Positions 43,149-61,311 of a stretch of 64,000 nt of DNA are shown in pieces. Under the pieces are notes generated by a model. The model did not search any database, was not told the DNA's origin, and saw only the letters and a program-made list of their open reading frames with translations. The stretch is from NCBI GenBank assembly GCA_021324165.1, contig JAJPJR010000018.1:1-64000 (forward strand), written 5' to 3'. The translations under genes and the position numbers were made by a program. The stretch comes from Armatimonadota bacterium. GTDB taxonomy: Bacteria; Armatimonadota; Fimbriimonadia; Fimbriimonadales; ATM1. Position 1 is the first letter of the stretch, and each line of letters opens with the position of its first letter.

Positions 43149-44855
43149 TCAGCCGCCGTTTAGGACCGACTGGGTCAACTGCTGCCAGCTGGAGGCTTCC
43201 TCTTCGGACATCGGGACCATCGCATAGGTTTCATCCATAATTCTCGCGGCTTCCGTCTTCTGTCCGGCGGCTGTCAGTTCCACCGCTTCCCGCACCGTGG
43301 CATCCTCGAACTGTTTTTTGCACTCTTCGTTCAGCGCCGATCCAGCGGCGCAGGTGTACGCCTTCATATACGCGTCTCGGCTTTTTGCGAACCAATCGAG
43401 ACGCTCCGAAACCGATTGTGATTTTCTGCCCGCTTCGCGCGCGGCATCTCCGGCAGAAAGATAAAGTTCCGGATCGGACTTTGCCGCATCTGCCGCGGCG
43501 ATGAAGTTTGCGTACGCTTCGTCAAAGTTGCGGGCTGACATCTGCGATTCGGCCCGCGGCGACTTTTTCTCGCTGCCTGAACCGGCTTTCGATGCCGTTT
43601 TGTCTCCGCCCTGAACAGGCGCCGCTTGGCTCGCATGCTGCTTTTCAGAAATCGCATTGATCGCATACACTGCCGCGAAACCCAGGCCGACGATCATCAG
43701 CCCTATGAAAATCACCCACAGCGTCCGCACAATGAAATCCGATGCGGCGGGCGACAAAATCGGGCGGTGCGGAGGCGGCAGCCAGGCTGGCGGATAGGGA
43801 GCGGGATTGTACGGCTGCGATGTTGGCACTCCCGGCTGCCCATACGCCTGTCCATAGGGCTGAGCATAGGGTTGACCGTAAGGCTGACCATAGGCCGGAG
43901 GCACCTGCTGATGCGGCGGCGGTTGGGGCGGATAGGGTGTTTGAATCGGCGGAGCGTAAGGATCGAGAGGCGGCCCCCAAGGCGCTGCGGTTGGACTCAA
44001 CATCGTGGGAGATTGGGCAAGCTGAGGATCGCTTCGAAGCGCGGATATCGCATCGCTCAACGCTTGTGCCATCGCTTTGGCGCTGTTAAATCGTAGTTCG
44101 GGAGATTTGTCCAGAGCCTTGCGAATCACTTGCGCCACCGAAAAACTTGCCTGCTGCGGGTCGGGCGGATCGTAGTGCATGATGGCGTGCGAAATCGAAA
44201 CCACGCTGTCGCCGGTGAACGGTTTTTTCCCCGCGATCGCTTCGTACAAAACGACGCCGGTGCTGAAAATGTCGGTGCGGGCGTCAATGTCGCGTCCGAC
44301 GATCTGTTCGGGCGACATATAACTCGGAGTGCCGAACACCTGACCGTCCATCGTAAGACTTGGTTCGAACGTCAGCCGTGCGATTCCAAAGTCGGTGAGT
44401 TTGACCCGCCCTTCGGGAAGCAGTTGGATGTTGTCGGGCTTCACGTCGCGGTGAATGATTCCGTGTTCGTGCGCATAAGACAGGCCTGCGAGCACTTCGC
44501 CGATAATCCGCGCGGCTTCGTCTTGGGGAATCAAACCTTCCGCATCGAGTTTCTGCCTGAGGGTTTGGCCCTCCAGGTATTCCATCGCAATGTAATGGCG
44601 GCCGTTGTCCTCGCCGACTTCATAAATGGTAACGATGTTCGCATGCGCCAGCGAGCCTGCGGCTTTCGCTTCCCGCAGGAAGCGGGCCATGCGCTCTCCC
44701 CTAAGCTTGTCGGTGGCGCCCGAAGGAAGGTTGAGCTCTTTCAGGGCGACGCGGCGGTTCATCGCGGGATCGTACGCTTCGTAAACGATGTCGTTGCTTC
44801 GCGCGATCTCCCGGATGATCTGGTATTTGCCAAGGGTTCCGCTGCCGGCGCTCAT
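43149..44855 (-). CDS. Membrane Ser/Thr protein kinase
   Basis: A 568-residue PknB-type kinase. The kinase domain (about 10-270) keeps Lys39 (VALKEL), HRDVKPDN (135-142), DFG (155-157) and GTPSYMSPEQ, so it should be active. The glycine loop is degenerate (IREIARSNDIVYEAYD). A linker (about 295-370) is dominated by Pro/Tyr/Gln/Gly repeats (YGQPYGQPYAQPYGQ). A transmembrane helix follows (about 378-402, TLWVIFIGLMIVGLGFAAVY), then an extracytoplasmic helical domain of TPR-like composition. No PASTA domains. It is the only kinase in the window with a full catalytic set and might phosphorylate neighbours, including PASTA or MshEN pseudokinases; that is speculation. Confidence 0.92.
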   Translation of the reverse strand: MSAGSGTLGKYQIIREIARSNDIVYEAYDPAMNRRVALKELNLPSGATDKLRGERMARFLREAKAAGSLAHANIVTIYEVGEDNGRHYIAMEYLEGQTLRQKLDAEGLIPQDEAARIIGEVLAGLSYAHEHGIIHRDVKPDNIQLLPEGRVKLTDFGIARLTFEPSLTMDGQVFGTPSYMSPEQIVGRDIDARTDIFSTGVVLYEAIAGKKPFTGDSVVSISHAIMHYDPPDPQQASFSVAQVIRKALDKSPELRFNSAKAMAQALSDAISALRSDPQLAQSPTMLSPTAAPWGPPLDPYAPPIQTPYPPQPPPHQQVPPAYGQPYGQPYAQPYGQAYGQPGVPTSQPYNPAPYPPAWLPPPHRPILSPAASDFIVRTLWVIFIGLMIVGLGFAAVYAINAISEKQHASQAAPVQGGDKTASKAGSGSEKKSPRAESQMSARNFDEAYANFIAAADAAKSDPELYLSAGDAAREAGRKSQSVSERLDWFAKSRDAYMKAYTCAAGSALNEECKKQFEDATVREAVELTAAGQKTEAARIMDETYAMVPMSEEEASSWQQLTQSVLNGG

Positions 44856-58500: not shown

Positions 58501-58636
58501 AGATTTCCACCAGGTTTTAGTCCGTTTTTCCCACTTTTCAGCCGAATTTGGTGGTTTGCATGCGGGCAGATCGGCCATGAACGTCTAAGCCTCAGTCTGA
58601 TGGCACAAAATGTGCCCTATGACCATTGGAACTCCT

Positions 58637-59203
58637 ATGTCCGCGAACGACAAGCACAGCGCCGAGCATGATCCGAAGACATTCGGCAAGCAGTTTCTCG
58701 GGGGTTATTCGCCCGCCGACGTGGATGCGTTCGTCGAGCAAGCGGTAAAGGAGTTGAATTCGGTGCGTTTGGAGTTGAGTTCGGTTCGGGCCGAGCGGGA
58801 TCGGCTTGCCGCGGAACTGGCCGAAGAGCGCAGCAAGTGCAATGACCTCTCCGACAAGCTGAAATCCGACAGTCACTTGATTCAGATTCTCACGGACAGA
58901 GTGGACGAGCTGAACAAGGCGGCTGCTCAGTTTCAAGAGAACCAACAATCGGTCGAGGGCATTTTGAAAATTGCGCACGCGGCGGCCGAACAGTTGAAAG
59001 CCGATGCCCAAAAAGAGTGCGATGAAATGGTGCGAAGCGCCGAACGCCGCGCCGATAGAATTCTGGATGAGATGCGCGAACGGATGGCTAGCTTGCAGTC
59101 GGAATTTGAAAAGGCCAAACGGGAATACGCCGAGTTTTTGAGTTCGGTGCGCGCAACTGCACAGGCGTTCGTTCGTCAGGTGGACGAAAAAGAGCTTCCC
59201 TGA
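58637..59203 (+). CDS. DivIVA-domain coiled-coil protein
   Basis: A 188-residue protein; the ATG at 58637 has a weak GGA ribosome site, and ATG 58619 is an alternative. The N-terminal DivIVA signature is KTFGKQFLGGYSPADVDAFV, the membrane-curvature-binding part. A long coiled coil follows (about 35-180), with heptads such as LNSVRLELSSVRAERDRLA. DivIVA proteins mark poles and division sites and recruit Min or cell-wall enzymes. It ends one base before the stop of the MinD/FlhG-like gene on the other strand, a suggestive neighbour. Confidence 0.87.
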   Translation: MSANDKHSAEHDPKTFGKQFLGGYSPADVDAFVEQAVKELNSVRLELSSVRAERDRLAAELAEERSKCNDLSDKLKSDSHLIQILTDRVDELNKAAAQFQENQQSVEGILKIAHAAAEQLKADAQKECDEMVRSAERRADRILDEMRERMASLQSEFEKAKREYAEFLSSVRATAQAFVRQVDEKELP

Positions 59204-60019
59204 TCAGGCGGTTTTTCGATCTCTGGACGGCGAGAAAGCCGATCGGAGCCGGTCGAACAATGATGTCTTTTGATCTCCGGTAGAGAGTCCGAGCACGCGC
59301 TTAGCAATGTCTGCCACGTCGCGTGCGGCAGGGCAGTTCGGATTCGCCAAAAGGAACGGCTTTCTGCTGCGGATCAGCAATTGGGCTTCGCGGTCGAACC
59401 GCACGAACCCGATATATTTGACGCTTTTTGAAAGAAACTGTTTGCAGATCGAATAGATGCGCGCATACACCTGTTTTGCATGGGCTTCGTCGTTCACCAT
59501 GTTCATCACCACTCCGATTGTTTTGTTCGGATCGCGGTTGAACAGCGTTTTGGCGATGGCATAGGCATCTGCCAGGCTGGCGGGTTCGGGAGTGATGACA
59601 AGAATCACTTCATCCGACGCTTCGCAGAACATGAGAACGTCTTCGCCCAGGCCTGCTCCGGTATCAAAAATCAGATAGTCGGTAAACGATTCAAGATTTG
59701 AAAGCTCAGCCAAAAACGCTTCGAGCTGCGGGCCGGTCATCCGCGCGAGCGCTTCGATTCCCGATCCGCCCGCAACGTAGTTGATTCCGCCTGGGCCGCG
59801 CTGCACAACTTCGGTCATCCGCTTTTCGCCGATGATCACGTCGTGAAGGGTGAATTCGGGACGAACTCCGAGCACCACATCCAGATTGGCCAATCCCAAA
59901 TCGGCATCGAACACCGTGGTGCGTTTGCCGTTGTCGGCAAGAGCGATGGCAAGATTTGCGGAGAGGTTGGATTTGCCGACTCCGCCTTTGCCGCTTGTGA
60001 TCGCAAGAGTTTTCATCAT
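59204..60019 (-). CDS. MinD/FlhG-like deviant Walker ATPase
   Basis: A 271-residue ParA/MinD-family ATPase. The start at ATG 60019 lies 2 bases after the upstream gene's stop, and GGAGGG is 11 bases upstream. The deviant Walker A is GKGGVGKS (10-17), DADLGLANLDVVLG is the switch I region, and YLIFDTGAGLGEDVLMF is switch II. LSNLESFTDYLIF and the closing region resemble FlhG/YlxH more than MinD. There is no obvious C-terminal membrane amphipathic helix; the tail is basic (SPSRDRKTA). It is probably a positioning ATPase for a polar or membrane machine, paired with the MshEN-pseudokinase gene. Confidence 0.88.
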   Translation of the reverse strand: MMKTLAITSGKGGVGKSNLSANLAIALADNGKRTTVFDADLGLANLDVVLGVRPEFTLHDVIIGEKRMTEVVQRGPGGINYVAGGSGIEALARMTGPQLEAFLAELSNLESFTDYLIFDTGAGLGEDVLMFCEASDEVILVITPEPASLADAYAIAKTLFNRDPNKTIGVVMNMVNDEAHAKQVYARIYSICKQFLSKSVKYIGFVRFDREAQLLIRSRKPFLLANPNCPAARDVADIAKRVLGLSTGDQKTSLFDRLRSAFSPSRDRKTA

Positions 60020-60021
60020 GA

Positions 60022-61311
60022 TTATGCGGCCCTCCGGCCAAGCAGCCGATCCCACAACGATGATTTCTGCGGCACCGTGAAATCGCCGATATTGCGAAGA
60101 AGTTCGTCGCGGTCGCGCGTGGTGTGTTCGGTTGCGGTCTTTGGCGCCGAGTTGAGTGCAGACCAGTTCACCGCTTTCAATTCCGAAATCAAAGCATCGA
60201 GGTTTTCGTATCGCTGCACCGAATTTTCGCTTGTTGCGCGCGCAACCAGAAGCTGCAGCGCAGGAGACGGTATCAGCGCGTCCTCTTTCGGATTGGCGCC
60301 AAAAAGACACGCCTTTGCCAACGTTCCAAGCGCGAACACGTCGCTTTGAACGGAACGAAACTCCCTGCCGCGTTCTTCGGGTGCTCGATATTTTTCGACT
60401 GACGTTGACAACGGGCACAGCAGAGGCTTGCCTTCGCGTGTCACGACGATGTTATCGGGGCAGAGGAATCCGAACGCGCCGTTTGTAACATAGTCTTGCG
60501 AAAGAGTTTCGGCGATTTGCGTGAGCAAGGTGGCGGTCTGCGACACCGACCGTGTTCCAGCCGTTTCGATGATGTGCCGCAAGGTTTCGCCATCGAATTT
60601 TGAAACAGCGAGCCACGCGTTCGAACCGTTTGTTTGATGACATTCGAAAACTTGCGCGAAGTGCGAAGCGTTGGATTTTGCAAACCTGCGCACCATCTCG
60701 AGCGCAGTGGAGTCGTTGGATTCGGATTGAAACTGAATCAAAGTGATTTCTCGATCCAAATGGAGGTCGAGAGCATCGTACACGCCTGGACCAAAACCCG
60801 ATTTCACACGAGCCGATGCATATCGTTCAGGTGCACCGACGAGCTGGGAGGCTTCATTGTGTACGCCGCGTGAAGTAGCCAACCCGTAGGCCTTGTGAAT
60901 CGCTTCGGCAAGCTTGGATGTCGGGGCCAGCGAAAAGTTGGGCTTCAAATGCGTGGTGGCCGCCAGCCAATCGGCAGTAACGATGTCAATCGGGTCGGCA
61001 ATGACGCAATCGAGCATGCCGTTTTCGATGCGAACAGGCAGAGCCAACGATTGGATCGCCTTTTCATAACTGACAAGTTCCAAGGCGCTTTTTTCTGGTT
61101 GAATCTGCGCTAAGTCGGCGATCGGAAAGCCGTACTGTTCGGCAAGGAGTTTGGTGATCTGCTCCTCGGTGGCGAACCCTTTGGCAACCACGATCTGCCC
61201 CATGCGCTGGTTGGAGGTGCGCTGCGCAGCCAAAACTAAAGAAAGTTGTAAATTTGTGATAATCCCGCTCGCGACCAGGGCATCCCCGAGCCGCTGATAT
61301 CGTTCTGCCAT
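60022..61311 (-). CDS. MshEN domain fused to a pseudokinase
   Basis: A 429-residue protein. Residues 1-150 form an MshEN/GspE N-terminal domain, LGDALVASGIITNLQLSLVL, LLAEQYGFPIADLAQI and LPVRIENGMLDCVIADP, as in pilus ATPases and c-di-GMP receptors. Residues 170-390 resemble a Ser/Thr kinase: GVYDALDLHLDREITLIQF, then FGFLCPDNIVV in place of HRDLKPDN (His and Asp both Phe, Lys now Cys284), PLLCPLST in place of DFG, and YRAPEERGREFRSVQSDVFALG as the retained APE region. Catalysis is therefore very unlikely. The gene is upstream of the MinD-like ATPase with a 2-base gap. It should act as a nucleotide- or partner-sensing scaffold, perhaps for type IV pili. Confidence 0.86.
   Translation of the reverse strand: MAERYQRLGDALVASGIITNLQLSLVLAAQRTSNQRMGQIVVAKGFATEEQITKLLAEQYGFPIADLAQIQPEKSALELVSYEKAIQSLALPVRIENGMLDCVIADPIDIVTADWLAATTHLKPNFSLAPTSKLAEAIHKAYGLATSRGVHNEASQLVGAPERYASARVKSGFGPGVYDALDLHLDREITLIQFQSESNDSTALEMVRRFAKSNASHFAQVFECHQTNGSNAWLAVSKFDGETLRHIIETAGTRSVSQTATLLTQIAETLSQDYVTNGAFGFLCPDNIVVTREGKPLLCPLSTSVEKYRAPEERGREFRSVQSDVFALGTLAKACLFGANPKEDALIPSPALQLLVARATSENSVQRYENLDALISELKAVNWSALNSAPKTATEHTTRDRDELLRNIGDFTVPQKSSLWDRLLGRRAA

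Follow-up and report, generated by a model that had tools for sequence, protein, structure and literature searches.

An MshEN-pseudokinase encoded beside a FlhG-type ATPase in the Fimbriimonadales

Introduction

FlhG is an ATPase that sets the number and position of flagella, and it is understood as a regulator of the GTPase FlhF. The flhG gene is consistently found immediately downstream of flhF, and the DQAxxLR element is what stimulates FlhF (2025 FlhF/FlhG review, PMC12826062). Fusions of MshEN to Ser/Thr kinases are among the architectures listed by Wang et al. 2016 (PMC5013675); the domain order MshEN plus kinase is therefore by itself already known, and the original prediction's statement that no standard family has this order is not borne out. 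The locus described here, in which such a fusion has a catalytically dead kinase domain and a FlhG-type neighbor, lies in a 64,000-nucleotide stretch of an Armatimonadota genome of the order Fimbriimonadales (the window).

Results

The fusion is encoded by an uninterrupted reading frame of 429 codons, whose boundaries are exactly 60022-61311 on the minus strand. Its features are as follows.

60022..61311, minus strand: MshEN-pseudokinase gene P0001, 429 aa; stop codon at 60022-60024
61135..61293, minus strand: c-di-GMP motif (MshEN_N), residues 7-59; NF053729, 54.4 bits (cut-off 38)
within 61135..61293, minus strand: motif halves RLGDALVASGIITNLQLSLVLAAQ and RMGQIVVAKGFATEEQITKLLAEQ, separated by a 5-residue spacer; 11/11 and 8/11 strict matches to the published 24-residue motif
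60874..61134, minus strand: MshEN_C subdomain, residues 60-146; Pfam PF05157, E=1.2e-13
60148..60831, minus strand: pseudokinase domain, residues ~161-388, lacking the VAIK Lys, the HRD Asp and DFG; activation loop deleted
60088..60114, minus strand: DRxxLL motif DRDELLRNI, residues 400-408; conserved and common to the kinase-less form
60025..60066, minus strand: basic/aromatic C-terminal tail KSSLWDRLLGRRAA; family form FWxRLFGRxAA

The N-terminal part is an MshEN domain. It carries the two 24-residue RLGxx-type motifs with a 5-residue spacer and a family score above cut-off that mark this receptor domain, and a PDB search with the N-terminus returned PilF, PilB and MshE at 1.5e-22 to 4e-13. 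Compared with the 24-residue motif published for VcMshE (PMC5013675), the first half matches strictly at 11/11 positions and the second at 8/11, with a spacing of exactly 5 residues. Similar motif scores are found in the other kinase-bearing members of the order, except for the divergent paralogue in genome G009 and, to some extent, for G098; the kinase-less proteins described below often have a weaker motif. From the near-complete motif of the protein described here, the MshEN half is predicted to bind c-di-GMP. The genome contains five GGDEF matches.

The kinase relationship is weak when this sequence is searched singly (Pfam Pkinase E=0.017, below the cut-off; PDB PknA 2.6e-4). A profile built from the kinase regions of nine members matches PknE at 1.6e-25, PknA at 1e-23, PknB at 1e-22 and many other kinases, and covers both the N- and C-lobes of the fold; the second G009 member, a paralogue, matches kinases on its own at 1.6e-23. 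A single-sequence AlphaFold2 model of the MshEN-pseudokinase had a pLDDT of 34.8, too low for the model to bear on the fold. PADLOC matches of the kinase region (PD-T4-6 and others) were rejected as a sign of defence: they reflect the generic kinase fold, and no defence context was seen.

Catalytic positions were tabulated against an active-looking kinase of the same window.

43149-44855, minus strand: PknB-type Ser/Thr kinase in which VALK, HRD and DFG are all intact

In the MshEN-pseudokinase, ITLIQF stands at the VAIK position and FGFLCPDN at HRDxKPxN, and DFG plus the activation loop has shrunk to about 10 residues (CPLSTSVEK) ahead of YRAPE. The VAIK Lys, HRD Asp and DFG Asp expected of an active Ser/Thr kinase are thus all missing, while the catalytic-loop Asn, YxxPE and SDVFALG are kept. 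The VAIK Lys is lost in 15/15 tabulated members of the order; the HRD Asp and DFG are each lost in 16/16 when G208, from outside the order, is added. Since none of the 15 tabulated order members retains the Lys, HRD Asp or DFG, catalytic death is family-wide. By contrast, 15/16 members still have the catalytic-loop Asn, and the activation loop is deleted in all tabulated members except the G009 paralogue and G208.

The original prediction had placed an MshEN module at residues 1-150 and a kinase-like fold stripped of Lys, HRD and DFG at 170-390. Pfam, NCBIfam and PDB matches within residues 7-146 bear out the former, the family profile over residues ~161-388 bears out the latter, and the catalytic losses prove to be common to the tabulated members of the order.

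The architecture recurs in 15 of the order's 113 genomes, namely 14 tabulated genomes (G009 with two copies) and G027, whose fusion is a near-copy of that in G025; it is therefore neither chance nor recent decay. The G009 second copy (L051:5925-8123) forms a paralogous pair with its neighbor, both members of which look dead: the pseudokinase reads VYKALSPSN and THLG, and the Walker A of the adjacent FlhG-like protein reads RTGLGRT. Elsewhere in the 291 genomes of the phylum, at least one clear fusion, in G208 (L097:263-3552), was present among the best five candidates per genome. The G208 protein contains a transmembrane segment, is extended at its C-terminus, keeps the Lys and has HGA in place of HRD; a FlhG-like gene lies directly upstream of it, and the genome holds two further FlhG-like genes.

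Immediately downstream of the MshEN-pseudokinase gene lies the gene of a FlhG-type ATPase.

59204..60019, minus strand: FlhG-type (MinD-family) ATPase, 270-271 aa; intact KGGVGKS, no N-terminal DQAxxLR
59207..59272, minus strand: MTS-like amphipathic C-terminal tail of this ATPase, SLFDRLRSAFSPSRDRKTA, recognized from its sequence pattern

Its ATG lies 2-5 nt past the MshEN-pseudokinase stop codon, so the two genes are very probably co-transcribed. An MshEN gene followed by the ATPase gene on the same strand was found at 37 loci in 36/113 genomes, the two genes usually lying only a few nucleotides apart, and further genomes show the same order by coordinates. At 22 of the 37 loci the MshEN protein is ~177-248 aa long and has no kinase domain; this sister form keeps DRxxLL except in G094. 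One gain or loss of the pseudokinase suffices on the ATPase tree (support 97/97; 98/95). The position of G208 on the pseudokinase side of that tree suggests a loss, but G208 is unplaced in the wider tree.

The best solved relatives of the ATPase are FleN (7.9e-51) and Geobacillus FlhG (4e-47), compared with 1.2e-35 for archaeal MinD and 7e-16 for E. coli MinD. In the tree, the ATPases of the pair branch among FlhG homologues from other classes of the phylum, and they are closer to FlhG/FleN than to MinD by both measures; on sequence grounds, the ATPase is FlhG. Among these nearest homologues, DQAxxLR is present in 8/9 examined FlhG-like proteins, and in G116, G249 and G241 the FlhG homologue adjoins FlhA and an FlhF-like gene, the latter labeled by position and N-terminal sequence rather than by family search. 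Within the order, DQAxxLR was found in 0/37 members checked. FlhF is nearly absent, exceeding the cut-off in 18/113 genomes, and the pair's ATPase gene does not lie directly downstream of flhF. FlhF and the pair overlap only in G011, where FlhF is present, yet the ATPase lacks DQAxxLR. A stretch resembling FlhF (80 bits, below the cut-off) lies beside FlhA at G009:C20:63470-66138 and is perhaps a decaying flhF. In G045 (L112:5161-7691), a second FlhG-like gene is preceded by that of a protein of 560 aa, which contains an extended acidic region and matches MshEN at its C-terminus (2.4e-11).

DRxxLL occurs in 34/37 partner proteins. It is absent from G094, which is kinase-less, and from the kinase-bearing G009 second copy and G098, and the ATPases of the last two form the longest branches of the tree. 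The motif may be the peptide that docks onto FlhG; one might even guess that it mimics the EIDAL peptide of FliM, but contig C81 showed no EIDAL, and FliM was not found either. The FWxRLFGRxAA tail, present in most kinase-bearing members, resembles the membrane-targeting tail GFLKRLFGG of E. coli MinD, an analogy by which the MshEN-pseudokinase might be targeted to the membrane. The ATPase tail is likewise MTS-like and could have the same function.

The ATPase is associated with flagellar genes. All 57 ATPase-bearing genomes have FlhA or FliG (FlhA only in G095), and the 15 genomes with neither are all without the ATPase (Fisher p=9e-6; p=0.028 at genus level; both uncorrected for phylogeny). 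The association is one-sided, with 41 flagellated genomes lacking the ATPase at the threshold used. Among the genera of the family to which the window belongs, the six with flagella carry the pair, and the one without flagellar genes, represented by two genomes that are 73-86% complete, lacks it. No flagellar gene was recognized beside the pair in the order.

Discussion

We lean slightly towards the view that the MshEN-pseudokinase is a dedicated partner of an FlhF-less FlhG and couples flagellar number or placement to c-di-GMP. The protein would then be the co-transcribed partner of a FlhG-type ATPase whose FlhF has been lost. The MshEN half would bind c-di-GMP, the DRxxLL peptide and the basic MTS-like tail would contact FlhG and the membrane, and the dead kinase domain would be a dispensable protein-interaction scaffold between MshEN and the C-terminal end. 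Binding of c-di-GMP would alter the cycling of FlhG on and off the membrane, or its meeting with the flagellar C-ring, with the result that flagellar number or placement would be tied to c-di-GMP. Binding of c-di-GMP, contact between the two proteins and the flagellar role of the pair are what we infer. Against this view stand the one-sided flagellar association, the lack of recognized flagellar genes beside the pair in the order, G011 with FlhF but an ATPase devoid of DQAxxLR, and the ATPase partners of G023 and G054/G055, in which no c-di-GMP motif is recognizable. Put as a partner swap, in which FlhG lost FlhF and DQAxxLR and gained a co-encoded MshEN-dead-kinase c-di-GMP receptor controlling flagella, the proposal is tentative, its chances lying a little short of balanced.

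The pair might instead regulate type IV pili, the MshEN-pseudokinase mimicking the N-terminus of PilB and the ATPase placing the pilus apparatus, a task that TadZ/CpaE performs for Tad pili. In favor of this, MshEN is a module known chiefly from the ATPases of pili and secretion systems, and type IV pilus genes occur in nearly all genomes of the order; PilM, present in 112/113, is so near-universal that co-occurrence offers no contrast between pilus and non-pilus genomes except in G054/G055. These two small genomes have little or no PilM signal and retain the ATPase. Their partner (L102:6873-9070 in G054, L101:5764-7800 in G055) is Lys-rich, has no Pfam match and ends in a DRxxLI-like sequence; like that of G023, it has no recognizable c-di-GMP motif. 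The joint absence of a type IV pilus signal and of the c-di-GMP half favors a pilus role, but the ATPase persists there, as does a partner ending in a DRxxLL-like sequence, despite the loss or near loss of PilM. Moreover, similarity and tree both identify the ATPase as FlhG, many pilus-bearing genomes lack the pair, and no pilus gene was recognized beside it in the mapped loci, so a pilus role appears unlikely.

A role at division or growth sites, with the ATPase as the order's substitute for MinD, is brought to mind by the next gene of the window.

58610..59203, plus strand: DivIVA/GpsB-family gene (PF05103, 2.2e-18), convergent with flhG and abutting it

GpsB, a relative of DivIVA, binds FlhG in B. 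subtilis (PMC12327844), and G003 and G006 likewise have a DivIVA-family gene in the vicinity of the pair. From synteny, a link between this protein and FlhG may be suspected here. Against a division role, the synteny was seen only within one family, about half of the genomes, complete ones included, have no ATPase, and MinC exceeds the cut-off in 0/113 genomes of the order with positive controls, which rules out the Min system as the ATPase's context; we judge such a role distinctly unlikely. That the kinase-like domain is still enzymatic through an unusual mechanism, as in SelO or SidJ, is highly improbable. The catalytic-loop Asn is indeed conserved although HRD and DFG are lost, but in the order the VAIK Lys, HRD Asp, DFG and activation loop have gone together, save that the G009 paralogue, alone among them, still has the loop. 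The kinase-less sister form also keeps the operon, and kinase activity is therefore not needed for the core function.

No close homologue with an intact catalytic set was among the homologues found, and reading the protein as a regulatory scaffold is therefore the right kind of interpretation. In this respect the original prediction, a scaffold that reads a nucleotide and signals to a partner, stands; it missed the partner itself, the FlhG-type ATPase of the operon, and did not include the strand, the DRxxLL motif, the MTS-like tail, the kinase-less sister form or the context, which is more likely that of flagella than of pili.

Because FlhG here is without FlhF and beside a protein with a c-di-GMP-receptor domain, FlhF-independent FlhG action becomes testable, as does direct c-di-GMP action on flagellar patterning versus action via transcription. 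The locus also provides a family of bacterial pseudokinases whose operon partner is defined and for which the kinase-less form is a natural control. A partner swap, if true, would place the number or positioning of flagella under the direct control of a second messenger. A literature search on FlhG with MshEN and on pseudokinases with MinD and pili, conducted mostly outside subscription journals and preprints, returned no paper on the pairing.

Among known systems, the FlhF-FlhG switch (FleN/YlxH) shares with this locus a FlhG-type ATPase with a Walker A motif and an MTS-like tail, and a single dedicated partner gene directly upstream. The partner here is an MshEN-pseudokinase instead of the SRP-GTPase FlhF, the DQAxxLR enhancer helix is absent, and the pair lies outside the flagellar operon. 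MshE, PilB and GspE, the ATPases of type IV pili and type II secretion, have the same N-terminal c-di-GMP-type MshEN domain, whereas here it is followed by a dead kinase and, by Pfam, no T2SSE ATPase domain. The fusions of Wang et al. 2016 (PMC5013675) combine the same two domains, but the accessible portion of that paper mentions neither catalytic death nor a FlhG partner. In the FleN-FleQ system of Pseudomonas, as described in the literature, a partner protein likewise links FlhG/FleN to c-di-GMP; that partner, FleQ, is a sigma54 enhancer-binding protein and not an MshEN protein.
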